Shown: in pieces, positions 13,810 through 36,309 of the stretch
How the letters are laid out: the number at the start of each line of letters is the position of its first letter
Numbering within the stretch: the first letter of the stretch is position 1
Notes under the pieces: model-generated
Seen by the model: only the letters and a program-made list of their open reading frames with translations
The model's database searches: none
Told to the model about the DNA's origin: nothing
From: Limnochorda sp. LNt
GTDB taxonomy: Bacteria; Bacillota; Limnochordia; Limnochordales; Geochordaceae
Assembly: GCF_035593265.1 (NCBI RefSeq)
Contig: NZ_CP141614.1
Span: 1,302,001-1,366,000 of the forward strand
Reading direction: 5' to 3'
Length of the DNA stretch: 64,000 nt
Translations under genes and position numbers: made by a program

Positions 13810-15373
13810 GTGCGAGGCATGCTGCTGACGCTGCCGGGGCTGACGGTGGCGGGGCGAGTGGCGGGCGAGCCGACGGCGGTCGAGGGCGGTCTCGTGGTGC
13901 CCGGCAGGGCCGTGACGCTGCTGCATCCCTTCGGGGCGGCGGGGCGCTACTACCGCCACGGCTGGCACTCCTGGAGCCCGGTCGAGTGGGTGGCGGTGCC
14001 GGGCGGCCGCGCGGAGGCCGGGGCGAGCGGCGGGGCGCCGGCGGACGACCGGGCGGCGGCCCTCTACTCCGACGACGATGCCCGCTACGCCGGCGCCTGG
14101 AGGCCGGGCGGCAGCGGGTCGGGCCGTCGAGGGGTCCGACGGGCGGGTGCTGCTGCTGGGCGCGCTGGACGTCGGCGCCCGGATCGAAGCCGACGACGAG
14201 GTGCTGCGGGGCTTCTACGAGGGCGGCCCCGAGGGCGACGGGGGCGCTGTCGGGGCCGCTGGCGCCGCCGCGGAGCCCGCCTGGTTCGTGGCGTACGGGG
14301 AGCGCAGCGAGGCCTTCGCCCGCTATGCCGAGCAGCTGGGCCGGCGGCTGGGACGGCGGGCTCGGGGCGGGTCGCCCCGGGTCTGGTGCAGCTGGTACGG
14401 CTACTACCGGGACATCTCGGAGGCGCGCCTGGCCGCGGCGCTGCAGGGCCTCGCAGGGCTGGCCTTCGACGTCTTCCAGGTGGACGACGGGTGGCAGCGG
14501 GCCATCGGTGATTGGCAACCCAACGGGCGCTTCCCCTCCGGCATGGCCGAACTGGCGAAACGCATTCACGACGCGGGGATGCGGGCGGGGCTGTGGATGG
14601 CGCCCTTCATCGTGGCGCCCGCGAGCCCGATCTTTCGGGAGCATCCCCATTGGCTGGTGCGGGACGACGACGGCCAGCCGGTGGTGGCGGGCCACAACTG
14701 GGGCGACGCCTATTACGCCCTCGACACCACGCACCCGCAGGCGCAGGCGTGGCTGCGGAGCCTGGTCGAGCGGGTGCGGGAGTGGGGCTACGACTACCTC
14801 AAGCTGGACTTCCTGTATGCGGCGGCGATGCCCGGCCGGCGGCACGCGCCCGTCCCCCGGGAGCGGGCTTACCGGGAGGGCCTGCGGGTGATGCGGGAGG
14901 CCGCGGGCGACGACGTCTACATCCTGGTCTGCGGGGCCCCCGTCATCGCCTCGCTGGGGCTGGCCGACGGCATCCGGGTGGGGCCCGACGTGGCACCGTT
15001 CTGGGAGATCCCTTACGGAGGGGGCGGGGCGTCGGCCCGCACCCTGCCCAGCTCACGCAACGCGGTCTGGACGAGTGTGGAGCGCCTGTGGCTGCAGCCG
15101 CTCATCCACACCGACCCCGACGTGGCCTACTTCCGCACCCGCCACAACCTGCTCGCCGAGCGAGAGCGACGGTGGCTGCAGGATCTGGCCCGGGTGGCTG
15201 GGTTTCGCGCCACGTCGGACCCGCCGGAGTGGCTGACGGGCCAGGAGCGTGCCGAGCTGGCGGCCTTCTTGCAGGAGCGGCCACGAGTCGAGCGGGTCGG
15301 CCCGTACCGCTACCGGGTGGACGACCGGGAGGTCGACTTCGGGCCGGCACTGGCCCGAGACGGGCAAGGATGA
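13810..15373 (+). CDS. alpha-galactosidase, GH36 type, apparent frameshift near 14100-14140
   Basis: The first ~95 codons (13810 onward, GTG start, GGAAGGAG upstream) encode a GH36-type N-terminus with YYRHGWHSWSPVEWV. The frame then changes by one base in a G/C-rich stretch and continues from about 14125 as VLLLGALDVGARIEADDEV to the stop. The catalytic part is intact: FQVDDGWQRAIGDW, DYLKLDFLYAA with the nucleophile Asp, and RVGPDVAPFW with the acid/base Asp. It would cleave terminal alpha-galactose from imported oligosaccharides. The frameshift may be a sequencing error or a recent mutation; the downstream frame alone opens at 14078. Confidence 0.8.
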
Positions 15374-15374
15374 G

Positions 15375-15407
15375 GAAGGGGACGGGTCCGCCGGGCCCGC
15401 CCCCTTC
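15375..15407. terminator. bidirectional hairpin between convergent genes
   Basis: GAAGGGGACGGG pairs with CCCGCCCCCTTC across a 9-base loop, in the 57-base gap between alpha-galactosidase (plus) and arsR (minus). GAAG/CTTC ends give a short A/T flank. A shared terminator is the simplest reading. Confidence 0.55.
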
Positions 15408-15430
15408 GCGGACGTGACGCCAGGTCGCCT

Positions 15431-16018
15431 TCACCCATCCTCGTCGGGCCATCCCATCTCCTCCGCCGGCTCCTCATCCCAATCGACCCGCTGGGCCGGC
15501 TTGCGCCCTCGACGCCGCACGTTGTCGCTGCGCCGGACGAGGCGTCGCCAGGCCTCCCACTGGCGATCCCGCTGCCGCACCGGGTTGGAGAGGTTGCCCC
15601 AGAAGAAGAGGCGGGGCGTCAGCCGCCCCATGGCCCGCAGGACCGTCAGCGGGCCGTCCGGCAAGGCCCGGCAGTGGACGAAGGATCCGGACGGACGGCT
15701 CTCGATGAAGCCCGCCTGCGCCAGCACCCGCAGGTGGTAGGAGACGGCCGACGCCTTGAGGCCGAGCCGATAGGCGATGACACGAGGCTCCACCGAAAAC
15801 GGCTGCAGCACGACCATGGCGAGGATCCGCAGGCGAGTCCCGTCGCCCAGGGCACGAAAGCACAGGGACCAGAGCGCGGCCTCTTCCTCGGTCATGTCGG
15901 GCGCGGGAAACGCCATCGCATAGAGGTCGGTGGGCATGCGGTCCTCGAGGGCCTCGAAGTCCTCCGGGGCCTCTCGCTGTGCGCCCCGTTGGGTGCCTTT
16001 CGTCGTCGACCTGGCCAT
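15431..16018 (-). CDS. ArsR-family transcriptional regulator
   Basis: A 195-residue regulator. About residues 45-120 form a winged helix: ALWSLCFRALGDGTRLRILAM, then AYRLGLKASAVSYHLRVLAQAGFIESR as recognition helix and wing. The Arg/Trp-rich C-terminal extension is unusual. No Cys pair for arsenic is present, so the signal is unknown. ATG 16018 has AGGAGG 6 bases upstream. It is divergent from the HybA-like gene with a 571-base intergenic region carrying a perfect palindrome. A truncated copy lies at 22440-22739. Confidence 0.85.
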   Translation of the reverse strand: MARSTTKGTQRGAQREAPEDFEALEDRMPTDLYAMAFPAPDMTEEEAALWSLCFRALGDGTRLRILAMVVLQPFSVEPRVIAYRLGLKASAVSYHLRVLAQAGFIESRPSGSFVHCRALPDGPLTVLRAMGRLTPRLFFWGNLSNPVRQRDRQWEAWRRLVRRSDNVRRRGRKPAQRVDWDEEPAEEMGWPDEDG

Positions 16019-16197
16019 GACGCGCCTCCTCACGGTCCTCGCGGAGGCGGCGCACGAGGCCATTACGGCGGAGCAACGGCCGATCCCTGCGGAGCGGGCG
16101 GCGCCAGGTCAGACCCCCGATGGGTGCGCGAGGGGCGGGGTGGGGCGAGGGCCGGGGTGGGGCGCGCAGCGAGGGTGTCCCGGGTGTGCACCAGGCG

Positions 16198-16226
16198 TTT
16201 TTAAATACCTTTTCAAAAAAGCCTCG
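16198..16226. promoter_or_regulatory. conserved AT-rich block
   Basis: TTTTTAAATACCTTTTCAAAAAA stands out in GC-rich DNA and is kept at 22852-22877 in the duplicate locus. The halves TTTTTAAA and TTTTCAAAAA give partial dyad symmetry. It could be an UP-element, a promoter core or a second regulator site. Confidence 0.4.
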
Positions 16227-16385
16227 TCACGTAGGCGAGGGGTATGCCACGGCGCGCGGGGCCGCCGGGGCGGGCCGCGACGATCTCGAAGCGCTGGGGG
16301 CCGTCGTGGTGGGCCTGCGGCCAGGGGGCGTGGAGCAGGTGCAGGGTCGAGCTGCGAGGCCCGAGACGACGGGTTCGCGACACTC

Positions 16386-16401
16386 TTCAACGATCGTTGA
16401 A
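16386..16401. promoter_or_regulatory. candidate ArsR operator
   Basis: TTCAACGATCGTTGAA is a perfect 16-base palindrome between divergent arsR and hybA-like genes, and it is unchanged in the duplicate at 23112-23127 although nearby bases differ. The TTCAA...TTGAA form matches ArsR-type operators. Confidence 0.55.
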
Positions 16402-16589
16402 ATGCGCGCGAGGGGGTGGAGGAGGGTCGGGCAAGGCGAGCAGGGTCATGGGGCAGCGACGCGGCGCCGGTCGCGAGCGATGTCACGGGCGCAAGATTGC
16501 TGCAAGGCCTCTGAACGGCGGCGGTAAGCCTCCTGTCAGCGCAGAGTTAGTGCCAAACGTCACAGTAAGGGGCGGGGGCGATCATCGCT

Positions 16590-17504
16590 GTGAAACAGGC
16601 ACCCCGTCCCGGAGTGAGCCGCCGGGGTTTCTTTCAGATCGGGGCGGCCATCGCGTCGGCCATCGGTGCCGCTTCGCTGGGCGCAGGGCGCAAGCCCGCG
16701 GCACGAGCGGCCCAGAGCGAGCCGGCGGGCGACTCCTGCGCCATGCTGGTCGACCTGACCCTCTGCGTCGGCTGCGGCATGTGCGCCTACGCTTGCCAGG
16801 AGCAAAACGGCTGGACGGGCGACCCCGACGGGCAGGAGCTGTCGGCGGACCGGTGGACGGCCGTGCGGGAGGTGGCGCTGGAGGACGGCGACACCCGCTT
16901 CGTGCGCACGCAGTGCTTCCACTGCCAGGTGCCCTCCTGCGCGGAGGCCTGCATCGTGGGGGCGTTGCGCAAGACGCCCGAGGGGCCGGTGGTCTACGAC
17001 GCCGGCCGCTGCATCGGATGCCGCTACTGCATGATCGCCTGCCCGTTCGGCGTGCCGCGCTACGAGTGGGACGACACGTGGCCCGAGGTGGTCAAGTGCG
17101 ACTTCTGCGCCGAGCGCATCGCCCGGGGCCAGCAGCCCGCCTGCGCGGAGGCGTGCCCGACGGGGGCGACCCTCTTCGGCCGGCGTTCGGAGCTCATCGC
17201 CGAGGCGCGCCGGCGCATCGACCAGGAGCCCGACCGGTACGTCCCCCACATCTACGGGGTCGACGAGGTGGGGGGCACGTCGTGGCTGTTCTTGTCGGAC
17301 GTGCCGTTCGACAAGCTGGGCTTCGCCCGGGTGGCCAGCGAGCCGCCGGCCTACCGCACCCGGGCGTGGATGCGGCTGGTGCCGGGCCTGGCGGTCGGGA
17401 TGGCCGGCTTGTTGACGGGCGCCTACCTGCTGGAGGGGCGCAACGGCGGCGACGACAAGGCGCGAGACTCTGAGCATCCGGCGCAGGGGGGCGAGCGCCG
17501 GTGA
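16590..17504 (+). CDS. Tat-exported four-cluster ferredoxin, HybA/DmsB-like
   Basis: A 304-residue electron-transfer protein. Residues 10-15 (SRRGFF) are a twin-arginine signal with a following hydrophobic stretch. Four Cys motifs follow: CVGCGMCAYAC, CFHCQVPSCAEAC, CIGCRYCMIAC and CDFC...CAEACPTGA, the normal set for four [4Fe-4S] clusters. The C-terminus has a membrane helix (LVPGLAVGMAGLLTGAYLLEG), as in HybA, which anchors it beside an NrfD/HybB-type quinone-reactive membrane subunit. That partner is missing here: the sequence diverges right after GTGAAGCCACG, the first codons of nrfD in the duplicate. The GTG start was chosen from the conserved upstream region. Confidence 0.88.
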   Translation: MKQAPRPGVSRRGFFQIGAAIASAIGAASLGAGRKPAARAAQSEPAGDSCAMLVDLTLCVGCGMCAYACQEQNGWTGDPDGQELSADRWTAVREVALEDGDTRFVRTQCFHCQVPSCAEACIVGALRKTPEGPVVYDAGRCIGCRYCMIACPFGVPRYEWDDTWPEVVKCDFCAERIARGQQPACAEACPTGATLFGRRSELIAEARRRIDQEPDRYVPHIYGVDEVGGTSWLFLSDVPFDKLGFARVASEPPAYRTRAWMRLVPGLAVGMAGLLTGAYLLEGRNGGDDKARDSEHPAQGGERR

Positions 17505-17667
17505 AGCCACGCTATGGCGTTTGCCGGGACCGGGATGGGGAACGGGGAAGCATCCCCCTTCCCATGCCGAATACGGCCGTGAAAACCTGCAGCGGGCTGG
17601 ATACTGCGCGGGAAACCCCGTGGAAAAGGACTTCGCCGCCGGGACAGCTGTAACACCCTACCAGGTC

Positions 17668-17721
17668 ACGGCCTCGACCCCGCGAATGGATCCCACGAAA
17701 GGGGTCCGGGGTCGAGGCCGT
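17668..17721. terminator. long perfect stem-loop
   Basis: ACGGCCTCGACCCCG (17668-17682) pairs without mismatch with CGGGGTCGAGGCCGT (17707-17721), and GGATCCC pairs with GGGGTCC inside it around an ACGAAA loop. It lies 160 bases after the hybA-like gene. TTTT follows after TAACG. It may be a terminator, a structured RNA or an element end. The rest of 17505-17986 shows no gene I can support. Confidence 0.5.
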
Positions 17722-17986
17722 AACGTTTTCGTGCTTCTGCGTGGTAGGTGGGGACTTTGGTGTCATTTCCGTGGTCCGTATAGGACTCTGGTTCCTGAGC
17801 TCGTGCTGCAAGAGTTTGCCAGTTAGGACGTGCACTTCACGCACTGTAACGCCCTGCAACGCTCATCCACGCGCCAGGGATACCCCTCACGGGCTACCCA
17901 AGACCCATGATGGAGCGGGCTCTCTCCCGAGAAGGCCGCCGGACGCGGACCCTGTTCACCTCCCGGAGGAAACGTCCTGGAAGGCC

Positions 17987-18241
17987 ATGAGCCGTGTGGG
18001 ACATGCCGGAGGGGGGAAGCTGGACGCCGTGCGTTGTCCGGACAAGGAGGTTTTGCTGGCGGCGCTGCAACGCTGGGCCGAGCGGGGCCCCAACTTCGGG
18101 GGCTTCACCGATGCGTGGCTGGCTGTGCGAGCCCAGCGGAGCGGGCTGCCCGTGTGCAGCGTCAACGGTAGCGACTTTCCAGACGTTGTCAATACCTACC
18201 CGCTGGCAGAACCTGGCCAGGGCGAGGCAGCGACACCGTGA
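17987..18241 (+). pseudogene. PIN-domain (VapC-type) C-terminal fragment
   Basis: An 84-residue frame whose second half reads NFGGFTDAWLAVRAQRSGLP followed by VCSVNGSDFPDV, the C-terminal pattern of PIN ribonucleases (F.DA..A..A...G.p..t.D.DF). The N-terminal half with the first acidic residues is absent, and no antitoxin gene is adjacent. Probably a toxin remnant; the assignment rests on the motif only. Confidence 0.45.
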
Positions 18242-18523
18242 TCACCGCTCCCGGGTCGGTCGCTCAGCCGCCGCTTATCTGTCGGCCCGTTACGCTATAG
18301 GAGCAGGCTCCTGAGACGCTACGTCTCCAGGCGAGCGACCGTAGGCTGAGGTGGTCCACGCGCGGGCCGCCCGCGGTCGACCCGTGGCAACCGCCTACCG
18401 GAGTGGGAGGCAGGAGCTTCGGGAAGATCAACCGAGGCAACGGCCCGTGAGGTCCATGGGGCGCGATAGCGACAGGGGTCGGGTCGCGCGGGTCGAATGG
18501 CGCTCCCGGGGAGGCTTGAGGTC

Positions 18524-19318
18524 ATGGGTGCGCCGTACCCGGAGCCCCTCTACCGCGACTGGCGCCATTACGATCTGCAAAACGCCGGCCTGCACGAGGA
18601 CATCGACTACTTCCGCCACCAGGTGCGCCGGTGGGGCGGACCAGTCCTGGAACTGGCGTGCGGCACGGGCCGGATCGCCATCCCCCTGGCGCGGGACGGG
18701 CACCGGGTGGTGGGGCTCGATCTGTCCGAATCGATGCTGGATGGTGCCCGACGCAAGGCGGCTCAGGCGGGAGTCGATGTCACGTGGGTCCGGGCCGACA
18801 TGCGCGAGTTCGACTTGCCGGGTCAACGGTTCCGCACCATCCTGCTGGGGTTCAACTCCATCTGCCTGCTTCTCACGTGGCGAGACCTGGAGCGCATGCT
18901 GCGCTGCGTGCGGCGGCACCTAGCCGACGGAGGCCGATTCCTCATCGACGTTTTCAATCCCGACTTCCGGTTCCTGATGAGGGATCCGGCCGCCCGGTTC
19001 GCGTGGGGCCGCTATCCCGACCCGGACGGAGCGGGCGAGGTGGAGCTCGCCGAGAGTAACCGGTACGACGACGCGGCGCAGATCAACCACATCACCTTGC
19101 ACTATCGGCTTCCCGACGGATCCGAGCTCGCGGAGCGCCTCGACATGCGGATGTACTTCCCTCAGGAACTGGACGCCTTGCTGCACTACAACGGCTTTCG
19201 AATCGAGGCGAAGTACGGCGACTACTCGCGGGCGCCGTTCGGGCCAGGTGCTGAGCGGCAGCTCCTGGTGTGCGCGGCGGATAGTTTGGATGATGAGAAA
19301 GACCTGCGAGTGGTTTGA
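18524..19318 (+). CDS. class I SAM-dependent methyltransferase
   Basis: A 264-residue enzyme with motif I VLELACGTGRIAIPLA, motif II VVGLDLSESMLDGAR and acidic loop VRADMREFDL, then ILLGFNSICLLL. The C-terminus (DYSRAPFGPGAERQLLVC) resembles small-molecule methyltransferases with the Methyltransf_25 fold. ATG 18524 has GAGG 6 bases upstream; an in-frame ATG at 18497 lacks one. The stop overlaps the next gene as TTGA. Substrate unknown. Confidence 0.85.
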   Translation: MGAPYPEPLYRDWRHYDLQNAGLHEDIDYFRHQVRRWGGPVLELACGTGRIAIPLARDGHRVVGLDLSESMLDGARRKAAQAGVDVTWVRADMREFDLPGQRFRTILLGFNSICLLLTWRDLERMLRCVRRHLADGGRFLIDVFNPDFRFLMRDPAARFAWGRYPDPDGAGEVELAESNRYDDAAQINHITLHYRLPDGSELAERLDMRMYFPQELDALLHYNGFRIEAKYGDYSRAPFGPGAERQLLVCAADSLDDEKDLRVV

Positions 19319-20061
19319 ACGGCTGCTGCGTGTCGGCCGGCAATGGGGTGGGGCGCCCGGTGACGACGGCCAGGGGGGACGGTGCGGTGCGGCGACTCGT
19401 CGAGGAGCACGCCGGGCGGTACGATCGCTGGTACGAGACCGAGCCCGGGCGGGTGCTCTTCGAGGCGGAGTTGCGGGCGCTCCGGCGAGTGGCGGCCGAC
19501 CTGCCCGGCCCCCGCCTGGAGGTCGGCGTGGGGACCGGCCGCTTCGCCGAGCCGCTGGCGATCGACGTCGGCGTCGACCTGGCGTATGCGGGGCTGTGGC
19601 TCTACCGCCAGCGCACACTCGGCCTTACGCCGCCCGCCGGGCGTCGCCTCCCCGTCCACCTGCTCCAGGCCGACGGGGCACGGCTTCCGTTCGGCAGCGC
19701 TACCATCGGGAGCGTCTTCCTCATCGTCTCCATCTGCTTCGCCGCCGAGCCGAGGGGACTGGTCGTGGAGGCCGCTCGGGTGGTGCGGCCGGGTGGCGCC
19801 GTGCTGGCGGCCTTCATCGACCGGGAGAGCCCTTGGGGGCGGTGGTACCGGGAGAAGGGGGAATCCGGCCACCTCTTCTACGAGCACGCCCGGTTCCTCA
19901 CCGCCACCGAGGTGCGGGCATGGCTGGAGGCGGCGGGCTTGCGGGTCCACCGTGCCGCTTCGACGCTGCTGCAGCCACCCGGCGACGCCCCCCGCCCCGA
20001 GACGCCCGTCGAGGGCCTCGTCCCGGGCGCCGGCTTCGTCTGCATGGTGGCGGGGCGCTAG
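19315..20061 (+). CDS. class I SAM-dependent methyltransferase, second of a pair
   Basis: A 248-residue UbiE/Methyltransf_11-like protein. Motif I is LEVGVGTGRFAEPL, followed by IDVGVDLAYAGL, ADGARLPFGSATIGSVFLI as motif post-I/II, and VRPGGAVLAAFIDRESPWG as motif III. The TTG at 19315 overlaps the upstream stop, implying coupling, but a GTG at 19360 is an alternative start. Relatives with SPWG...Y..K are often grouped with redox or arsenic genes. Substrate unknown. Confidence 0.8.
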   Translation: MNGCCVSAGNGVGRPVTTARGDGAVRRLVEEHAGRYDRWYETEPGRVLFEAELRALRRVAADLPGPRLEVGVGTGRFAEPLAIDVGVDLAYAGLWLYRQRTLGLTPPAGRRLPVHLLQADGARLPFGSATIGSVFLIVSICFAAEPRGLVVEAARVVRPGGAVLAAFIDRESPWGRWYREKGESGHLFYEHARFLTATEVRAWLEAAGLRVHRAASTLLQPPGDAPRPETPVEGLVPGAGFVCMVAGR

Positions 20062-20365
20062 CAGGCTCGCCAGGACGGAGCGGGATACGCCGGCGTGGAG
20101 AGAGGGCAACTGGGGGACTCAGCGCCGAACCCATGCCACCCGAGGCAACCGCATAGGGGACGTGGGACCTGGGTGGCGCAGCCCATGACCCGCATGGACG
20201 AGTCGTCGTCCTCCGGGGAAGAGCGGCGCGGGCATTCCCGACGAGGCTCGCGACGGACGCCGCCGTCCGCGAGGCCCCAGGTGACCCATTGCGTCGCACG
20301 CCCCGCTCCCCGCTCCAACGATATGCCGGACGCGGAGGGGCGCAGGAGGGCCACCCTCCTTCAAA
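20062..20365. other. intergenic, nothing recognised
   Basis: I see no coding pattern, repeat or RNA signature in this 300-base stretch. Open frames here lack conserved-looking composition. Confidence 0.4.
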
Positions 20366-20578
20366 GTGCCAGCACAACACGTGCATGGCCGACTGCAGGC
20401 GTTGGGTGATGAGGGGGCCCGCCGGCTCGGGGACGGACAGATAACCGAGGAAAGGGCCGTAGGGCTCACGCTGGCGGCCACGGGGCTGTTGCCGCCGGCG
20501 CTGGCGGCGGTGGCCCAGTCGCTGCCCGACCTGGCCATCCTGGGCACCTCGTCACGGCTGCTGCGCCTCGGGCGATGA
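20366..20578 (+). pseudogene. metal P-type ATPase C-terminal fragment
   Basis: The frame ends LTLAATGLLPPALAAVAQS followed by LPDLAILGTSSRLLR, which matches the last membrane helices and ...NSxRLLR terminus of CtpC-like heavy-metal P-type ATPases. No phosphorylation or ATP-binding motif survives upstream. The identification is from motif memory. Confidence 0.45.
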
Positions 20579-20602
20579 GGATGCCGTCGAGGGCCTCGGG
20601 GA

Positions 20603-21526
20603 TCACGGGTTGCCCTCGCTCACGACCGCGATGGTGTGGCCGTCCTCGTCGCGCGTGACCAAGCCCGCCTGCGTCGAAGCACCGCTGAGAGCGGCTACCT
20701 GCAGCACCTCGTCCTCCAGTCGCTCCAAGGGCTCCAGCCCGACCCCGGCTTGCTCCAGGCGGCGGGCCACGGCCTGCACGTCAGCGGCCGACGGGACGAC
20801 GAACGAGAAGTGTCGAAGCTGGACGCAGTCGGGTGGGGGTGGCGGGGCGTCGATGCCTGCCCACGTGTTGGCCCCCACGTGGTGGTGGTAACCGCCGGCC
20901 GCGAAGAACCGGGCGCTCGGCCCGAACCGCAACACGAGATCCAGCCCCAGCGCGTCCCGGTAGAAGCGCTCGGCACGCGCCACTCGTGAGACCTGCAGGT
21001 GGATGTGGCCGAGACGGGTACCGGCGGGCATGACGCCGCCGGGGTCCTCGCCGGGAGCCAGCTCCGCCATCAGGCCGTCGAAGTCCAGGGGCTCCGTGGT
21101 CATCAGGATGTGGTCGCCGCGGCGGGGCCACTCGTCCCGAGGGCGGTCCGCGTAGAGTTCGATGCCGTGGCCATCGGGATCGGACAGGTAGACCGCTTCG
21201 CTGACCCAGTGGTCCGAGGTCCCGTCGATAGGCCAGCCCGAGCGCACGACGCGGGCCACCACCTCGGCCAGCTGACGCCGGGTCGGCAGCAGCAACGCGA
21301 AGTGATACAGCCCCCGGCACCCCGGCGGCTTGGGGCGGGCACCGGGCTGTTGGGAGAGCAGCACCAGCGTCCGAGGTCTACCCGCCTCGTCCCGCAGGCC
21401 GACGGCGACGCACCCCGGCCCCCTCCACACGGGATGCAACCCAAGCGTGCCCTCGTAGAAGGAAAGCGAGCGCTCCAGATCACCCACGGTGAGGTGGACC
21501 CATCCGAGCCTCGTCAGGTCATGCAT
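20603..21526 (-). CDS. VOC-family ring-cleavage dioxygenase, CatE-like
   Basis: A 307-residue protein built of two vicinal-oxygen-chelate modules. Module 1 has LGWVHLTVGDLERSLSFYEG, YHFALLLP and GHGIELYADR, providing two His and a Glu for the metal. Module 2 repeats this with LGHIHLQVSRVARAERFYRD and LRHFSFVVPS, but the last ligand position reads HTIAVV without the Glu, as is common for the non-catalytic half. Relatives are annotated catechol-2,3-dioxygenase (CatE); the true substrate is open. No operon partner. Confidence 0.87.
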   Translation of the reverse strand: MHDLTRLGWVHLTVGDLERSLSFYEGTLGLHPVWRGPGCVAVGLRDEAGRPRTLVLLSQQPGARPKPPGCRGLYHFALLLPTRRQLAEVVARVVRSGWPIDGTSDHWVSEAVYLSDPDGHGIELYADRPRDEWPRRGDHILMTTEPLDFDGLMAELAPGEDPGGVMPAGTRLGHIHLQVSRVARAERFYRDALGLDLVLRFGPSARFFAAGGYHHHVGANTWAGIDAPPPPPDCVQLRHFSFVVPSAADVQAVARRLEQAGVGLEPLERLEDEVLQVAALSGASTQAGLVTRDEDGHTIAVVSEGNP

Positions 21527-21581
21527 GCGAAGCCCTCTCCCTTGCCACCGGGGTCATCCTCGTCATCCTGCCGTGTCACCC

Positions 21582-21650
21582 TACCGCGGCCCGGGCCACC
21601 AGCCCCACGAGCCCGCCGGCGGCGGTGAGCCGGGCCGAGTTGAGGCCAAG
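21582..21650 (-). pseudogene. chrA 3' fragment
   Basis: On the minus strand GLNSARLTAAGGLVGLVAR matches the C-terminus of the intact ChrA (GLNSAWLIAGGALLGLVAR). The rest of the gene is absent: sequence jumps to a segment matching the region upstream of chrA near 2405-2480. An internal deletion of a second chrA copy explains this. Confidence 0.75.
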
Positions 21651-21747
21651 GGCACGGGGGCCGCGGCGAGGCGGTCTCGCTTCTGTCGGAGTATACCCGC
21701 ACCGAGCCGAGGCGGGGGCCTGGCATGGAGGGCGACTGGCCGGTGAT

Positions 21748-21767
21748 CCTGACAGACTGCTGTCAGG
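21748..21767. promoter_or_regulatory. inverted repeat upstream of dinB
   Basis: CCTGACAG-ACTG-CTGTCAGG is a perfect 8-base dyad with a 4-base spacer, ~100 bases before the DinB start. It suits a dimeric regulator's operator. Confidence 0.45.
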
Positions 21768-21868
21768 GTGAAGAGGTTCGAATGACGACAGAGGGCCGTG
21801 GGCCACGACCAACGGCTGGCGGACGGCCCGGCAGGTGGCCCATCACTTGGATGGAAAGCGGTGAGAGC

Positions 21869-22366
21869 ATGACGGAGAGCATCGCAGTGGAGCGGCTACG
21901 GCGCGCGGTACTGACGTTGTTGGACGAGGCCCTGCAGGGCCCGCCGGGCGATGCGACGTGGTTCGTCGACTCGGGCCCGCAAGCGGGGCTTCTCCGCTTC
22001 CTGGACGGCATCTCGCCCGAGGCAGCCTCGACGCCGCCTCGACCTGGCAGGGCCAACCTGGCGGCCCACGTCGACCACGTGCGCTACGGCCTGGAGCTGG
22101 CCAACCGGGCGCTCCGGGGTGAGCACGACGCCTTCGCGACGGCCGACTGGGGCCGGAGCTGGACCATCCGGTCCGTGGATGCCGAGGCGTGGGCTCGGAT
22201 CAAGGCGGGGCTTCGGCGGGAGTACGAGGCAGTGCGGGAGGTGCTGGCCTCGAGCAACGGGTGGCTGGCCGACGACATGGCGCTCACCGGAGTGCTGGCC
22301 CAGATCGCCCACGTGGCCTACCACCTCGGTGCCATCCGGCAGATCGCTCGCGACGTGGCGGGCTGA
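21869..22366 (+). CDS. DinB/YfiT-family metal-dependent protein
   Basis: A 165-residue four-helix-bundle protein. The His triad is visible as NLAAHVDHVRYGLELANR in the second helix and HVAYHLGAIRQIARDVAG at the C-terminus, standard for DinB-like putative thiol transferases or hydrolases. ATG 21869 follows GGTGAG by 4 bases; an in-frame ATG at 21851 is possible. It lies next to chrA-type sequence in both loci, so the ancestral order was chrA-dinB. Confidence 0.8.
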   Translation: MTESIAVERLRRAVLTLLDEALQGPPGDATWFVDSGPQAGLLRFLDGISPEAASTPPRPGRANLAAHVDHVRYGLELANRALRGEHDAFATADWGRSWTIRSVDAEAWARIKAGLRREYEAVREVLASSNGWLADDMALTGVLAQIAHVAYHLGAIRQIARDVAG

Positions 22367-22439
22367 GCCGGGCATCTGACTGCCGAGTCAGGGCCTGCCC
22401 CAAGGAGTCAGGACCTGACCGAAAGCCTGCCTCGTCCTG

Positions 22440-22739
22440 TCAGCCGTCGGGTGCGTGGGCGGGATGCCCTCCCGCCCAGCGCACGAAGGACCCGGACGGG
22501 CGGCCCTCGATGAAGCCGGGGTCTGCCAGCACCCGCAGGTGGTACGAGACGACCGACGCCTTGAGTCCGGGCCGGTAGACGATGACGCCGGGCTCCACCG
22601 AAAACGGCTGCCGCACGATCAGCGCGAGGATCCGCAGGCGAATCGCATCCCCCAGAGCGCGGAAGCACAAAGCCCAAAGGGCGGCCTCCTCCTCGGTCAT
22701 GTCGGCCCGGGGCCTTGCGGAGGTGGCGTGAGTGGGCAT
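22440..22739 (-). pseudogene. truncated arsR duplicate
   Basis: 99 residues: the winged-helix part (ADMTEEEAALWALCFRALGD, then LKASVVSYHLRVLADPGF) matches the intact ArsR at 15431-16018, but the C-terminal ~75 residues are replaced by WAGGHPAHAPDG where the sequence joins dinB-downstream DNA. The recognition helix is kept, so a DNA-binding fragment could still be made. Confidence 0.75.
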
Positions 22740-23111
22740 TACCGCGGCACGATGGTCGACCCCTGCGGGGTGGCGGGCGCCACGGCGGAGCCTGGGCGGG
22801 TGGGGCGAGGGACGGTGCATGCGTCGAGGGTGTCCCGTCCCTGCACTAGCTGTTTTTAAATAGCTTTTGAAAAACCGCTCGTCGCGAAGCGGATGGGTAC
22901 GCCGCGCCCTGCGGTGCAGAGCGAACGGGGGCGGCCGGCCTCGAAGCGGCGCGGGCCGCCGCGTCGGACATCCGGCGAGGGGGCTGCCGAGCGAGTGCAG
23001 GGCTGCGCCGGTGGGGGATGGTGGACCTTGGACAGGGAAGGTGGGGCGGCGAGAGGGCGAGGGGAGAGGCGCGAGTCGGGCGGATGCCGAGGTGACGGGT
23101 TCGCGACGGTG

Positions 23112-23127
23112 TTCAACGATCGTTGAA
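23112..23127. promoter_or_regulatory. second copy of the ArsR-type operator
   Basis: The same 16-base palindrome TTCAACGATCGTTGAA as at 16386-16401, between truncated arsR and shortened hybA-like gene. Confidence 0.5.
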
Positions 23128-23315
23128 ATGCGCGCGAGGGGGTGGCGGGCAGGAGGGCGCGGCCGCCGGAGGTCGAGAGCGACGGTGGGGCGCCGGCTGG
23201 AAGCGATGGCACGGGTGCAAGAGTGCTGCAATACCCCTGAAGGGCGGCGGTAAGCCTCCTGTCAGTGCAGAGTTAGTGCCAAACGTCACAGTAAGGGGCG
23301 GGGGCGATCATCGCT

Positions 23316-23702
23316 GTGAAACAGGCACCCCGTCCCGGAGCGAGCCGCCGGGGTTTCTTTCAGATCGGGGCGGCCATCGCGTCGGCCATCGGTGCCGCCG
23401 AGGCGCGCCGGCGCATCGAGCAGGAGCCCGACCGGTACGTCCCCCACATCTACGGGGTCGACGAGGTGGGGGGCACGTCGTGGCTGTTCTTGTCGGACGT
23501 GCCGTTCGACAAGCTGGGCTTCGCCCGGGTGGCCAGCGAGCCGCCGGCCTACCGCACCCGGGCGTGGATGCGGCTGGTGCCGGGCCTGGCGGCGGGGATG
23601 GCCGGCTTGCTGACGGGTGCCTACCTGCTGGAGGGGCGCAACGGCGGCGACGGCAAGGCGCAAGACTCTGACCATCCAGCGCAGGGGGGCGAGCGCCAGT
23701 GA
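23316..23702 (+). CDS. HybA-like protein lacking its Fe-S domain (in-frame deletion)
   Basis: 128 residues. Residues 1-28 repeat the Tat signal of the full-length copy (SRRGFFQIGAAIASAIGAA) and then jump directly to EARRRIEQEPDRYVPHIYGV and the C-terminal membrane helix. About 178 residues with every Cys motif are missing but the frame is kept. The deletion joins two GCCG tetranucleotides. It still overlaps the nrfD-like gene by GTGA, so translation of nrfD remains coupled. Without clusters it cannot carry electrons. Confidence 0.75.
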   Translation: MKQAPRPGASRRGFFQIGAAIASAIGAAEARRRIEQEPDRYVPHIYGVDEVGGTSWLFLSDVPFDKLGFARVASEPPAYRTRAWMRLVPGLAAGMAGLLTGAYLLEGRNGGDGKAQDSDHPAQGGERQ

Positions 23703-24904
23703 AGCCACGTTACTTCCCCGCAGCGTCGGGCGGGGCGCAACCGGCGGCGGTGGGCCGGGCGCCCGCGAGGGCAGTGGCAGGGCCGGGCGCGGCGGTGCGG
23801 GAGATGGCCGTGTCGCTGGGGCCCGCCCGGCTGGCGCTGTGGGCGCTGGTGGCGGCCGCGCTGGTGGCGGTCGGGTACCGCATGGTGGCGGGGCTCGGCG
23901 CCTCGACGCACCTGACCGACGTCTGGCCGTGGGGGCTCTGGAAGATCGTCGGCGTCGTGGTGGCCATCCCGCTGGCGGCCGGGGCCTTCGTGGTGGCGGC
24001 GTGGGTGCACGTCTTCCGCCATCATGGGTACGAGGCGCTGGCGCGCCCGGCAGTGCTGGCCGGCTTCATCGGCTACCTGACGGCCGTGGCGTCGCTGGTG
24101 GTCGACATCGGACAGCCGCACCGCATCTGGCATCCCATCGTCATGTGGCAGCCGCACTCGGTGCTCTTCGAGATCTGCTGGTGCGTCATCTTGTACACGA
24201 CGGTGCTGGCGCTGGAGTTCAGCCCGGTGGCGCTGCGGGCGCTGGGGTGGGAGCGGCCACGGCGGGCGCTGGAGGCGGCCATCGTGCCGCTGGCGGTGGC
24301 CGGGGCGACGCTCTGCGTGCTGCACCAGAGCTCGCTGGGCAGCCTCTTTCTCATCGCCCCGGGGCGGGTGCACCCGCTGTGGTACACGCCGGCGCTGCCG
24401 CTGATCTTCTTCGTCTCGTCGGTGGCGGCGGGGCTTGCGACGCTGCAGATCCTGACGTGGGTGACGGGGCGGCTGTACGGGCAGGCGGTCGGTGAGCGGC
24501 TCAAGGCGGGGCTCGCCCGCGGGCTGACCGTGGTGCTGGGGCTGCTGCTGGCGGTACGGGTGGTCGACTGGGCCGCTCGAGGGACCGGGCCGTGGCAGGC
24601 CACGGGCTTGGAGGCCGCCATGGCCTGGCTGGAGCTGCTGGTCGGCATCGCCTTGCCGCTGGTCCTGTTGGCGTGGGAGTGGCGCAGCGGCGGGATTCGG
24701 TGGCGGCTGCTGGCGGCCGTGCTGGCCGCGGGCGGGGTCTTCCTGCATCGGCTCGACGTGGGGCTCATCTCCATGCGGCAGGCCGCCAACGGGGCGGGCT
24801 ACTTCCCGTCGTGGATGGAGTTTCTGGTGATGGCGGGCATCGTGGCGCTCGGCATGCTCGCCTACGACTGGGTGGCCCGCCGCCTGCCGCTCTTCGAGCG
24901 CTAA
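23699..24904 (+). CDS. NrfD/HybB-type quinone-interacting membrane subunit
   Basis: A 401-residue protein with about nine or ten membrane helices. Motifs include VWPWGLWKIVGVVVAIPLA, SLVVDIGQPHRIWHPIVMWQ, HQSSLGSLFLIAPGRVHPLW and a late FLHRLDVGLISM, all typical of HybB/NrfD subunits that pass electrons between quinone and a HybA-type ferredoxin. The GTG start overlaps the upstream stop. Its partner here has lost the Fe-S domain, while the intact partner at 16590-17504 has lost its NrfD; they may complement in trans. Confidence 0.9.
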   Translation: MKPRYFPAASGGAQPAAVGRAPARAVAGPGAAVREMAVSLGPARLALWALVAAALVAVGYRMVAGLGASTHLTDVWPWGLWKIVGVVVAIPLAAGAFVVAAWVHVFRHHGYEALARPAVLAGFIGYLTAVASLVVDIGQPHRIWHPIVMWQPHSVLFEICWCVILYTTVLALEFSPVALRALGWERPRRALEAAIVPLAVAGATLCVLHQSSLGSLFLIAPGRVHPLWYTPALPLIFFVSSVAAGLATLQILTWVTGRLYGQAVGERLKAGLARGLTVVLGLLLAVRVVDWAARGTGPWQATGLEAAMAWLELLVGIALPLVLLAWEWRSGGIRWRLLAAVLAAGGVFLHRLDVGLISMRQAANGAGYFPSWMEFLVMAGIVALGMLAYDWVARRLPLFER

Positions 24905-24907
24905 CGT

Positions 24908-24951
24908 CGGGGGCGAGGCACCGGGAGAGCCTTCTGGGCGCCTCGTCCCCG
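24908..24951. terminator. hairpin between convergent nrfD and helicase
   Basis: CGGGGGCGAGGC pairs with GCCTCGTCCCCG (one G-U). It starts 4 bases after the nrfD stop and probably serves both strands. The next 70 bases hold three near-repeats of GCTGGTCGTCGAG. Confidence 0.5.
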
Positions 24952-25026
24952 CCATCCCGGGGGGCGGCTGCTGGTCGTCGAGCCGCTGGTCGTCGAGGCA
25001 GCCGCTGCTCGTCGAGGCGGCTGCCC

Positions 25027-27714
25027 TCAAAGCGGCTGCTCCTCGCCGGTCACCAGGTTCCACCGGACGAGCCTCGTCACGCCGTGGATGGGCTGGATGC
25101 GGTCGTAGCTGACCTGCCAGCGCACCGACGCATCGGGGTGGCGCAGGTCGTAGACGATGCCCCTGGGCGTGTAACGGTAGCCCTCCACGACGACCTCTTC
25201 ACTGGCCTCACCCTTCATCAACATGGCCGGCTCGCCTCTCGCCACCACCACCTGCCAGTCGTCGTCCTGCCCGGGCGCGGGCAGCGCCAGGTCGGCCTGG
25301 GGCAGCGGTGCCGGCCGCAAACCCTCGAGCGCCTCGGCCAGACGCTCGAGCTGCGCCCGGGCGGGTGACCCATCCTCGAGACGGCTCACTGCCGCCCTTG
25401 CCATCTCCCCGAACCGCTCGGCCAGCTCCCTCGTCAGGCGCAGGCTGCCGTAGGTGGCATCGTAGATGCACCACCCGTGCACCTCGCCCTGCCCCGTGGG
25501 CGACAGGCGGGAGGTGAACTGGCCCAGCCCCACGTCTCGCTCCTGCACCCCGCACTCGTCGCAAAAGGTCCCCAGGATGGCCTGCGCCGCCAGTTCGTCC
25601 AGCCGCACGCCCGGCGCCCACCAGACCACGCCCGTCGTCTCGAAGAAGCGGTTGAGCGGCCGCGTGAAGTAGGGGGACTCGGGCCCGTACTCGTGGCGCT
25701 CCTTGGCGCTGCCCCGGGTCTCCACGAAGCCGGTGCACCGCTCGCTCACCTGCATCTCGGCCTCGGCCACGAAGGCGCCACCCTCGCCCGTCCACAGCCC
25801 CAGCAGCCCCTCGGGCCACCGCGGGAAGGCCATCCGCTGCAGGATGGGGTCGGTGGTGTAGAAGCGTTCGGCGTGGACCCGGATGCGGGCCTTGCCGAAG
25901 TCGAAGTGCGTCACCCGGTACGGGCGGGCCATGTAGTAGTAGACGGCGCCGGGGTAGGCCTCCCTCAGGGCCTGGCTGTAGGTGACCGACCCCAGCTGGC
26001 GGTCGCCCCATCCCAGGATCTGAAACTCCCGCTCGACGGCGTTTCGCAGCGGGAACTCCCGGTGGGGCCCCGCCAGGGCCCGCTGCTTGAGCGGTGCGAG
26101 GTCGGGCGGGATGGCCTCGCGGGGCTCCAGTTCGTTGGCCAGCATGCGGCTGAAGGACGCCGGCAGCGACTCGAAGCGGGCCAGCGACCCGCCGCCCGCC
26201 CCGAGCCCGTTGAGCTCGACGGCGGCGCACAGGGCGTTGGCGTACTGCAGGTAGCGGTTGTCGAGGTAGAGGCGGTTGGCCTCGACGGGCCGGTCCAGGT
26301 AGCGGGCGAGCCCGTCCGCCAGGGTGCCGGAGGGATCGAGCACGACGCAGACGCCGTCGCGCACCCGCCCGGCGCGGCCGACCCGCTGCCAGAAGGCCTT
26401 GACCGACGACGGCGGCTGCAAGAGCACGACCAGGTCCACCTCGCCTACGTCGATGCCCAGCTCGAGGGCCGACGTGGAGATGACGCCCCGCAACTCGCCG
26501 CGGGTCAGCGCTTCCTGGATGGCGTGACGATCCTCGTCTTCGTAGCCGGCGCGGTAGGGCAGCAGGCCCTGCAGCGCGGGCTCTGCATCGGGAGCAGGGG
26601 CGACGCCCTCGGCCTCCGGCTCAACAGCAGCCCCCGGCTCGCGGGCAACCTCCGACTCGAGGGCAGCCTCCGGCTCGAGAGCAGCGGCTGCCTCCTGCGG
26701 GCCGGCGGCGCCGGTCGCCCCAGCGACCTCAGCGCCCGCGCCCCCCGCCCCCCCAGCGCTGCCCGGGGCCTGGCGGTGCACCGAGGCCGACACGATGCGC
26801 TCCACCATGCGCCGCGAGTCGGCGAAGCCCAGGAAGGGCGAGTCGGCCGCCGCCGCGCACGCCCGCACGAACTCCACGATGACGTCGAACTCTCCCTTGC
26901 GCCGTCGCCCGCCGCCGGCCCCGGCCTCGCCCGCCTCTTCGTCCGGCCGGGCCAGGATCAGCGTCTTGGCCGCCGCCGGTGCGCCGTCCGACTCAGGGCC
27001 CAGCACCACGGGCTTGAAGCCCGTCAGGGTGGCGATGAACGCCTCGGGGTCGCCCAGGGTGGCCGTGCTGGAGATGCACTGGCGCACGCCCGACACGGCC
27101 CTCAGCCGCCGCATGAATAAGGCGAAGTTGGAGCCGAAGACCCCGTCGTAGACGTGCGCCTCGTCGAGGATGACGATGGCCAGGCGGTCGAGGAAGCTGC
27201 GCACGGGCGGTTCGGTCAGGTCGGGGAGCAGCCAGGCGTGGGTCACGTCGGGCGTCATCAACAACAGGCGGTGCTCCCTGACGATCCGCAGCCGCTCGCG
27301 CATGCCGACCCCGCCGTCGATGTAGCCCCACCGCAGCCCCAGCGGCTGCAGCAGCTCCCGCCACTTGCGCATCTGGTCCTGGATGAGGGCCCGAGCCGGG
27401 TAGAAGGCCACGACGCAGGCCGCCGGATCCCGCAGGAGCAGGTCGGCCGCGGCCGCCACGAAGACCAGGCTCTTGCCGGACGCGGTGGCTGTCGACAGGC
27501 AGACGGAGTGACCTGCGAGGGCGGCCTCGATGCCCCTGGCCTGGTGGGCGTAGAGCCCCTTCGGATACCGCTCTTTAAGCAGCGCCGCAAGCCTTGGATG
27601 CAGCCCCGACGGCACCGGAAGGTACCGGCCCGGGCGGCGCTCGAGGCGACGCTGGTCGGCGATCATGAGACCGCATGCACGCAGGATGGAGACGACCTTC
27701 TCCGTGGTGAACAC
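25027..27714 (-). CDS. DEAD/DEAH-box superfamily 2 helicase, MrfA/YprA (DUF1998) type
   Basis: An 895-residue helicase. RecA1 (about residues 50-260) has the Q-motif region YAHQARGIEAAL, motif I STATASGKS, motif Ia FYPARALIQDQM, motif II ILDEAHVY and motif III SSTATLG. RecA2 has STSALELGIDVGEVDLVV and motif VI QRVGRAGR. The C-terminal part has a DUF1998-like CDECG and WCIYDATYGSLRL, with fewer Cys than MrfA. A ~65-residue Ala/Glu/Pro/Gly tract (26570-26780) interrupts the linker between the RecA domains. MrfA relatives act in DNA repair, and related helicases occur in defence islands. It lies 254 bases downstream of the 547-residue gene in the same direction. Confidence 0.88.
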   Translation of the reverse strand: MFTTEKVVSILRACGLMIADQRRLERRPGRYLPVPSGLHPRLAALLKERYPKGLYAHQARGIEAALAGHSVCLSTATASGKSLVFVAAAADLLLRDPAACVVAFYPARALIQDQMRKWRELLQPLGLRWGYIDGGVGMRERLRIVREHRLLLMTPDVTHAWLLPDLTEPPVRSFLDRLAIVILDEAHVYDGVFGSNFALFMRRLRAVSGVRQCISSTATLGDPEAFIATLTGFKPVVLGPESDGAPAAAKTLILARPDEEAGEAGAGGGRRRKGEFDVIVEFVRACAAAADSPFLGFADSRRMVERIVSASVHRQAPGSAGGAGGAGAEVAGATGAAGPQEAAAALEPEAALESEVAREPGAAVEPEAEGVAPAPDAEPALQGLLPYRAGYEDEDRHAIQEALTRGELRGVISTSALELGIDVGEVDLVVLLQPPSSVKAFWQRVGRAGRVRDGVCVVLDPSGTLADGLARYLDRPVEANRLYLDNRYLQYANALCAAVELNGLGAGGGSLARFESLPASFSRMLANELEPREAIPPDLAPLKQRALAGPHREFPLRNAVEREFQILGWGDRQLGSVTYSQALREAYPGAVYYYMARPYRVTHFDFGKARIRVHAERFYTTDPILQRMAFPRWPEGLLGLWTGEGGAFVAEAEMQVSERCTGFVETRGSAKERHEYGPESPYFTRPLNRFFETTGVVWWAPGVRLDELAAQAILGTFCDECGVQERDVGLGQFTSRLSPTGQGEVHGWCIYDATYGSLRLTRELAERFGEMARAAVSRLEDGSPARAQLERLAEALEGLRPAPLPQADLALPAPGQDDDWQVVVARGEPAMLMKGEASEEVVVEGYRYTPRGIVYDLRHPDASVRWQVSYDRIQPIHGVTRLVRWNLVTGEEQPL

Positions 27715-34699: not shown

Positions 34700-36309
34700 T
34701 TGGTTGGCCCTGATAAACTCGCCGGGAAAAGCCCGTCGTGACGGGCTCACCCCTCTCCTCCCCGAGACCGAATGATGCTAGAATCGGCCCCAGGGGGGCA
34801 TGGCATCGTGCGTCGGGAACGCAACGTGGCGTTCAAGGCGGACGTGTTCGAAAGCCTCATCGATCCCCAGCTCTTCGACTGCCCAAGGAGCTGGCCATCA
34901 TCGACCGTGGACGACGAGCGCTTCCTGGAGCCTATCCGGCGCAAGCTCACGGCCCGGCGGGGTCGGCCCACCATCCCCCTGGGGACGTACCTGCGCATGG
35001 TGTACCTGAAGCGCCGCTACCGCCTGGGCTTCGAGGCCCTCGTCAAGGAAGTGGCCGACAGCCTGGTCTGGCGGCGCTTTTGCCGGTTGCGCTTGACCGA
35101 CAAGGTGCCTGACGCCACCACCCTCATCAAGCTGACCCACCGGCTGGGTCCGGACGTCATCGAGCAACTCAACGACGCCCTGATGGCCCAGCTGGTGGAG
35201 GCGCGGCTGATGAAGCGCCACGGCCAGCGGATCCGGGTGGACACCACGGTGGTGGAAGCCAACATCCATCACCCCACCGACGCGGGCCTGCTGGCCGACG
35301 GGGTGCGGGTGCTGACGCGGCTGATGCGCCGGGCCAAGGAAGCCGGCATCGGGGTCCGCCTTTCGGTTCGAGACCGCCTACGCTCGGTCCGCCGCCGGCT
35401 GCGCCGCATCGGCCAGATGCTTCGCCGGGGAGGGGAGAAGGCCCAGGCCGAGGTGGACCGCCTTACCGCGGAAGTGGCTCTGCGGGCCGAGCAGACGCTT
35501 CAAGAGGCGCAGCGCATGGCTCGGGCTGTCCAGCGCCGCATCCGACAGCTCGGCCCGGCGGTCGGCTCTCGTTACCGGGCCCTCGCGCAGGGTCTGGTCA
35601 CGTACACCCGCCGCCTGCGCCGGGTGCTGGAGCAGACCCGGCTTCGCTTGCAGGGCATCCGGACCATTCCGGACCGGCTGGTCAGCCTCTTCGACCCGGA
35701 TGCGCGCCCCATCCGTCGGGGCAAGCTGTCCAAACCCGTCGAGTTTGGGTACAAGCTCGTCTTGGTGGAGACGCAGGAGGGCTTCATCCGCCACTTCCGG
35801 CTGCATGGGGGCAATCCCAGCGACGACAGCGTGTTGGTGGACGCCGTGGCGGAGCACATCCACGCGGTCGGGGCCACGCCCCGAGCGGTGGCCGCCGACC
35901 GGGGCATGAGCAGCCGGGCCAACGAAGCGGCCCTTCGGGCGATGGGCATCGCGTACGTCGCCCTGCCGGCCCGAAGCGGTCGGGCTCGTCGGCTTTTCGA
36001 GCGACGCCGGGCCTTTCGGCGGTTGCTCCGCTGGCGCAGCGGCCAGGAGGGGCGCATTGCGCACCTCAAGCACGCCTTTGAGCTCGACCGCAGCCGCTAT
36101 CGGGGTGCCGAGCGGGCGTTTACCTGGATCGGCGAGGACCTCTTGGCCCACAACCTGACCCGGGCGGCCCGCCGGCTGCTGGCCCTGGCTCCGGCGCAAG
36201 CCTGAGCGAGCCCCGCTGGCGGGGATGAAAGGCAGAAGCTCAGCACGGCAACGCCCTCTCGCCACGGGTCAGCCCCTCTCTCGACAGCCGGCGATTTTAC
36301 CAGGAGGTA
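34700..36309. mobile_element. ISNCY-type insertion sequence, copy 1
   Basis: About 1,610 bases. Ends carry imperfect inverted repeats: CCTGATAAACTCGCCG on the left and, read inward from the right, CCTGGTAAAATCGCCG. CTAG flanks both sides (34696-34699 and 36310-36313), as in copy 2, pointing to a CTAG target. Confidence 0.7.
34808..36205 (+). CDS. ISNCY-type transposase, copy 1
   Basis: ~465 residues. N-terminal PTIPLGTYLRMVYLKRRYRL precedes a DDE-type core: VDTTVVEANIHHPTDAGLL, AADRGMSSRANEAALRAMG and SGQEGRIAHLKHAFELDRS as the Glu region. A long Arg-rich helical insert separates the first two. Compared with copy 2, two small deletions (1 and 5 bases) shift the frame over ~13 residues near residue 25 (DCPRSWPSST instead of ELPKELAIIDR) and then restore it. 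A -10-like TAGAAT at 34780 supports the GTG start at 34808. Confidence 0.85.
   Translation: MRRERNVAFKADVFESLIDPQLFDCPRSWPSSTVDDERFLEPIRRKLTARRGRPTIPLGTYLRMVYLKRRYRLGFEALVKEVADSLVWRRFCRLRLTDKVPDATTLIKLTHRLGPDVIEQLNDALMAQLVEARLMKRHGQRIRVDTTVVEANIHHPTDAGLLADGVRVLTRLMRRAKEAGIGVRLSVRDRLRSVRRRLRRIGQMLRRGGEKAQAEVDRLTAEVALRAEQTLQEAQRMARAVQRRIRQLGPAVGSRYRALAQGLVTYTRRLRRVLEQTRLRLQGIRTIPDRLVSLFDPDARPIRRGKLSKPVEFGYKLVLVETQEGFIRHFRLHGGNPSDDSVLVDAVAEHIHAVGATPRAVAADRGMSSRANEAALRAMGIAYVALPARSGRARRLFERRRAFRRLLRWRSGQEGRIAHLKHAFELDRSRYRGAERAFTWIGEDLLAHNLTRAARRLLALAPAQA

Follow-up and report, generated by a model that had tools for sequence, protein, structure and literature searches.

In Shigella sonnei, HybA is described as binding HybB directly and being protected by it, and without this binding HybA is cut by a rhomboid protease and then degraded (PMC7232013). 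According to a review, mutations that affect FeS binding in NrfC and NapG block the Tat export of these proteins (PMC6708511). By analogy, these precedents suggest that a HybA remnant would not last in the cell, although it could be shielded by binding to NrfD. Such a remnant is encoded in the window analysed here (the whole stretch of 64,000 nucleotides from Limnochorda sp. LNt), where a hybA-nrfD operon has been duplicated and each of the two copies, A and B, is missing a different half (Table 1).

The best profile matches of HybA-A were HmcB (246.6 bits) and HybA (220.5 bits), against cut-offs of 420 and 263, and those of NrfD-B were HmcC (238.2 bits) and the HybB-type model PRK10881 (229.1 bits), against cut-offs of 550 and 450. 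With all scores below the NCBIfam cut-offs, the proteins are not HmcB, HmcC or HybA equivalogs in the strict sense. NrfD-B matches PF03916 with 65.3 bits (cut-off 25.8). PF14589, first taken for an NrfD family, gave no match in any control genome, and PF03916 was used instead. The profile search of the genome returned one NrfD, that of copy B, and the HybA-A query found only A and B at an E-value of 1e-10 or better, which bears out the earlier note in so far as it looked to locus A for the full protein: apart from B, no other locus of the genome was found to encode a HybA of this type. Copies A and B hold the only detected NrfD and the only intact HybA/HmcB-type protein of the genome. Both remaining halves look intact, since HybA-A keeps 43 of the 44 conserved columns of the HybA alignment and NrfD-B keeps 55 of the 58 columns that are invariant in the 11 other rows of the NrfD alignment. 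The nearest solved fold to the AlphaFold2 model of HybA-A (mean pLDDT 87.3) is 1kqf_B, the FeS subunit of formate dehydrogenase-N; a sequence search of the NrfD profile against solved structures gave no match.

Table 1. Features of the two operon copies, in window coordinates.
Feature	Coordinates	Strand	Remarks
ArsR-type regulator, copy A	15431..16063	-	210 aa; divergent from hybA-A
Palindrome upstream of hybA-A	16386..16401	.	16 bp, perfect
hybA-A	16590..17504	+	Intact, 304 aa; Tat signal, 16 cysteines, C-terminal tail helix
Part of hybA-A without counterpart in B	16673..17200	+	528 bp; placement uncertain by the 3-bp overlap
nrfD stub at A	17501..17514	+	Start to codon 5, the limit of homology with B
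Putative degenerate 5S rRNA remnant	17530..17644	+	Just downstream of the nrfD stub of A; 21.4 bits (cut-off 38 bits), E 0.13
Shortened ArsR-type regulator, copy B	22440..22742	-	~100 aa
Palindrome upstream of hybA-B	23112..23127	.	16 bp, perfect; same as upstream of hybA-A
hybA-B remnant	23316..23702	+	128 aa: Tat signal region (residues 1-28) and C-terminal 100 residues with tail helix; no cysteine clusters
Deletion junction in hybA-B	23396..23398	+	3-bp CGC in common; 528 bp of copy A absent
Right arm	23396..23712	+	Corresponds to A 17198-17514 at 97% identity; the longest run without a mismatch is 172 bp
nrfD (HmcC/HybB-like)	23699..24904	+	401 aa; sole NrfD detected in the genome; GTGA overlap with the remnant

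In the alignment, both ends of the 128-aa ORF match the 304-aa HybA/HmcB-like ORF of copy A, and a single block of 528 bp is absent in frame. The exact in-frame loss proposed earlier therefore stands, with its size corrected from about 178 codons to 176. The GCCG microhomologies that had been placed at the junction were not borne out: GCCG strings occur near both breakpoints but out of register, and what the two sides have in common is CGC (A 16670-16672, equivalent to B 23396-23398). At least 3 bp are in common at ~8.6% of positions when a 528-bp deletion is placed anywhere within hybA, so the match is weak evidence for a repeat-mediated deletion. An alignment of 50 HybA-like proteins has 16 invariant cysteines, and the missing block contains every one of them, which leaves hybA-B with 0 of 16, in agreement with the loss of every cluster-binding cysteine reported in the earlier note; no Pfam Fer4 match was found in the 128-aa ORF. 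Of the features of a HybA/HmcB-like tail-anchored Tat ferredoxin, the ORF retains the twin-arginine motif SRRGFF, as read from the sequence, and a predicted C-terminal membrane helix. The frame and the 4-nt GTGA stop-start overlap with nrfD are likewise intact, as had been seen before, and the remaining two frames after the junction run into stops 88 and 30 nt before the nrfD start. Modelled with an alignment of the same homologues as HybA-A, the remnant reached a mean pLDDT of 71.6 and a pTM of 0.40, with helices at residues 11-36 and 77-112 only. In blocks of ten residues, the juxtamembrane segment between the junction and the tail helix scores 89-98 in HybA-A versus 55-84 in the remnant; in the model, this segment is left without a confident predicted fold once the cluster core is gone. 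With an intact homologue in relatives, functional residues gone and a short form that is not conserved, hybA-B has the properties of a gene remnant produced by deletion.

Copy A has a loss of its own, which the earlier note did not mention. DNA identity between A and B ends at 17514 in A (23712 in B), within nrfD codon 5, and hybA-A has no nrfD directly downstream with which to form an operon pair. From 17516 on, the A sequence recurs elsewhere in the genome, including at two genuine 23S-5S ends. Two genuine 5S copies score 93 and 92.8 bits, and the putative remnant was matched only in a permissive search of 17300-18500, with no Rfam match at gathering thresholds in 15000-25500. Given so weak a match, the main ground for reading this piece as 5S is its DNA similarity to 5S copies at other genomic sites. 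Further degenerate 5S copies of 41 and 42 bits lie beside genuine ones (L170 5279-5392 and L173 786-897), and degenerate copies of this kind appear to mark old rearrangements. A nearby 377-bp segment (18020-18396) is 93% identical to genome position 644159-644535, likewise near a degenerate 5S piece. A plasmid search with 15400-18400 gave no match.

The duplicated block takes in the ArsR-type regulator and the intergenic region. Identity between A and B is 97% over the 173 bases ending at the junction and 306 of 317 bases to its right, a match that, judged on the sequences, lies far beyond chance. Windowed values run mostly at 0.5-0.9 upstream, rise to 0.98-1.0 around the start of hybA and again beyond the deletion on its right, and drop to 0.92-0.93 towards the gene end. 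Over 75 codons of the regulator, dS is 0.457 and dN 0.098 (dN/dS 0.21), versus a dS of 0.041 and a dN of 0.025 (dN/dS 0.62) over the 127 codons common to both hybA genes. Because of this contrast in dS, the best reading is that hybA was recently homogenised, through recombination or gene conversion. The homogenised tract extends to both sides of the deletion, which is thus probably no older than the homogenisation, and hence young. The 11 base differences in the common hybA codons are seven non-synonymous and four synonymous; without the variable tail, dN/dS is 0.36 from three changes of each kind, too few to tell relaxed from constrained evolution. The value for the regulator domain suggests that copy B has not simply been abandoned.

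Several other repeats were noted. Recombination between the direct-repeat arms (17198-17514 and 23396-23712) would, at the sequence level, excise 6,198 bp and so restore a complete hybA-nrfD operon. The palindrome upstream of both hybA genes has seven perfect sites in the genome (five outside the hybA pair) and three with one mismatch, versus none for a reversed control pattern; as a regulon marker it was rejected, the neighbouring genes looking unrelated by eye and forming no coherent set. Elsewhere in the window, two similar ORFs of 477 and 479 aa (34772-36205 and 60402-61841) have nearly the same N-termini and are perhaps two copies of a mobile element gene.

To place the remnant among its relatives, 117 NrfD loci were surveyed: 10 in the relatives' set (own locus included), 27 from a phylum sample and 80 from a further search, with near-duplicates such as G002/G003 included. 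An intact pair of the same clade is present in these two genomes of the same family, its NrfD and HybA each ~69-70% identical to those studied here and overlapping by 4 nt. The 4-nt overlap is found in 7/7 close intact pairs (L002-L008) and in 32 of the 99 loci measured for spacing; its presence in the relatives' intact pairs suggests that the frame and overlap of hybA-B were inherited. In the intact relatives, hybA precedes nrfD. An ORF with a CxxCxxC motif adjoins NrfD upstream in 101 of the 117 loci. The other 16 are the own locus, L149 (where HybA is adjacent but was missed by the motif filter), nine hydrogenase-type operons with a full HybA ~2.3 kb upstream of NrfD (L087, L088, L097, L098, L100, L102, L104, L116 and L144), four loci cut by contig ends (L051, L089, L138 and L142) and L048. 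At L048, an NrfD gene (1501-2601) was found with no FeS partner within 1.5 kb on either side. Among the 117 surveyed NrfD loci, a cysteine-free HybA was found at the own locus only.

A second hybA-nrfD pair occurs in four relatives (G001, G002, G003 and G005), where it shares an operon with genes for a sensor kinase and response regulators. The operon encodes a Tll0287-like sensor kinase, a response regulator, HybA, NrfD and a further regulator (L040 4230-10073, L041 6639-12570, L043 8696-14413). The three kinases scanned with Pfam (G001, G002 and G005) have a Tll0287-like domain and one CxxCH motif each; this domain family binds haem c, according to a preprint (PMC12889525). At L183 7748-10266, the own genome encodes a kinase with one CxxCH motif (74% identity to the G001 kinase) and a regulator (84% identity to that of G001), with no adjoining hybA-nrfD.

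Taken together, we think it probable that the 128-aa gene is the product of a recent loss-of-function deletion in a split duplicated operon and is a non-functional remnant. In the order of events that we infer, the hybA-nrfD operon and its divergent ArsR-type regulator would have been duplicated long ago, ~6.7 kb apart, and the two hybA genes would later have become nearly identical through gene conversion or recombination. Copy A would have lost nrfD by a rearrangement that left nrfD codon 5 abutting a decayed piece of 5S rRNA sequence, and copy B would recently have undergone a short-homology deletion of 528 bp in hybA, which stayed in frame by chance, as one in three deletions does. The 128-aa product would carry no clusters and, to judge from other systems, would be rejected or degraded, and translation through the remnant may still bring ribosomes to the overlapping nrfD. 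As the other frames stop before nrfD, a deletion that kept the frame may have had an advantage if nrfD depends on ribosomes from upstream. If the electron-transfer pair works at all, HybA from A would have to join NrfD from B. Against a non-functional remnant, the frame is kept with no further stop, which would be expected of a maintained peptide too.

A less likely reading, though one to be taken seriously, is that the whole module is decaying, with no working HybA-NrfD unit left and with hybA-A and nrfD-B as parts not yet damaged. It would account for the damage to both copies and for the lack of the relatives' second hybA-nrfD pair beside the own sensor kinase, and it fits the NiFe hydrogenase large subunit, for which no match above the cut-off was found in the own genome versus one in each of the four compared relatives. 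However, HybA-A and NrfD-B keep nearly all conserved residues, with a coding-type GC3 of 0.94-0.95. No catalytic subunit was recognised adjoining A or B, but the intact pairs of relatives also lack an adjoining one, so this absence is no sign of decay. That the deletion is an assembly error from two similar copies is very improbable. The near-identical arms of ~150 and 317 bp, 6.2-6.7 kb apart, might invite such an error, but they are much shorter than long reads, and each copy has its own diverged flanks. B-specific bases on both sides of the junction (codons 9 and 35) argue that B is not simply locus A read twice. If the host is Geochorda subterranea LNT, as the apparent lack of a NiFe hydrogenase, the pattern of kinship and the published description together suggest, its genome was by that account closed with Nanopore sequencing and then corrected with Illumina data (PMC11456536).

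The earlier note took the peptide to be kept in the service of NrfD, for assembly or translational coupling, with HybA-A carrying the electrons. The retained frame, Tat signal, tail helix and GTGA overlap agree with this, as do the stops in the other two frames, and by analogy with the direct HybA-HybB binding described for Shigella sonnei (PMC7232013) the tail could bind NrfD. We nevertheless judge such a role improbable, given the youth of the deletion, the lack of any such form at the other surveyed NrfD loci, the fall in model confidence over the juxtamembrane segment and the failure of FeS-less NrfC and NapG to be exported by Tat (PMC6708511). A selected, dedicated assembly peptide is not supported by these data; the coupling half of the proposal may still hold, in view of the 4-nt overlap in all seven close pairs and the early stops in the other frames. 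A more elaborate scheme, which we regard as quite improbable, combines a cis leader with a placeholder: the cysteine-free tail would deliver ribosomes to nrfD, and its helix would fill the HybA site until full HybA arrived from A. Some cells would rejoin the operon through the 172-bp run, with a 6,198-bp deletion, so that a population could hold split and rejoined forms.

On the preferred reading, a non-functional remnant in a split operon, the locus would offer a clear snapshot of a duplicated respiratory operon breaking up, with a different half lost from each copy, in steps that gene conversion and an rRNA remnant have marked. It also carries a warning, in that 23316-23702 should be annotated neither as a functional HybA nor as a novel short subunit. 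Finally, it provides a natural experiment on whether an NrfD made at one locus can be reached by a tail-anchored ferredoxin made at another.

Reciprocal loss after duplication is a general evolutionary pattern. Here each copy lacks a different essential half, and the two together would make one set, whose members might work together in trans. Literature searches on split or reciprocally lost operons, on gene conversion with in-frame deletion and on translational coupling of HybA and HybB found no such case by title, which is not proof of absence. The locus resembles the Hmc complex (HmcB/HmcC) and hydrogenase-2 (HybA/HybB) in its best profile matches and in the gene order of its intact relatives. 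It differs from both in that no hydrogenase or multihaem cytochrome gene was recognised beside A or B, and in that the B copy lacks the cluster domain. A further likeness is to the pair of tail-anchored ferredoxin and HybB-like quinol oxidase without a fixed partner described in PMC10924467: in the intact relatives, too, the gene just upstream of that for the NrfD-like protein encodes a tail-anchored protein with a Tat signal and four clusters. The modules described there are usually accompanied by c-type cytochromes, whereas the window has the two members of the pair at separate loci, with one of the FeS genes gutted.
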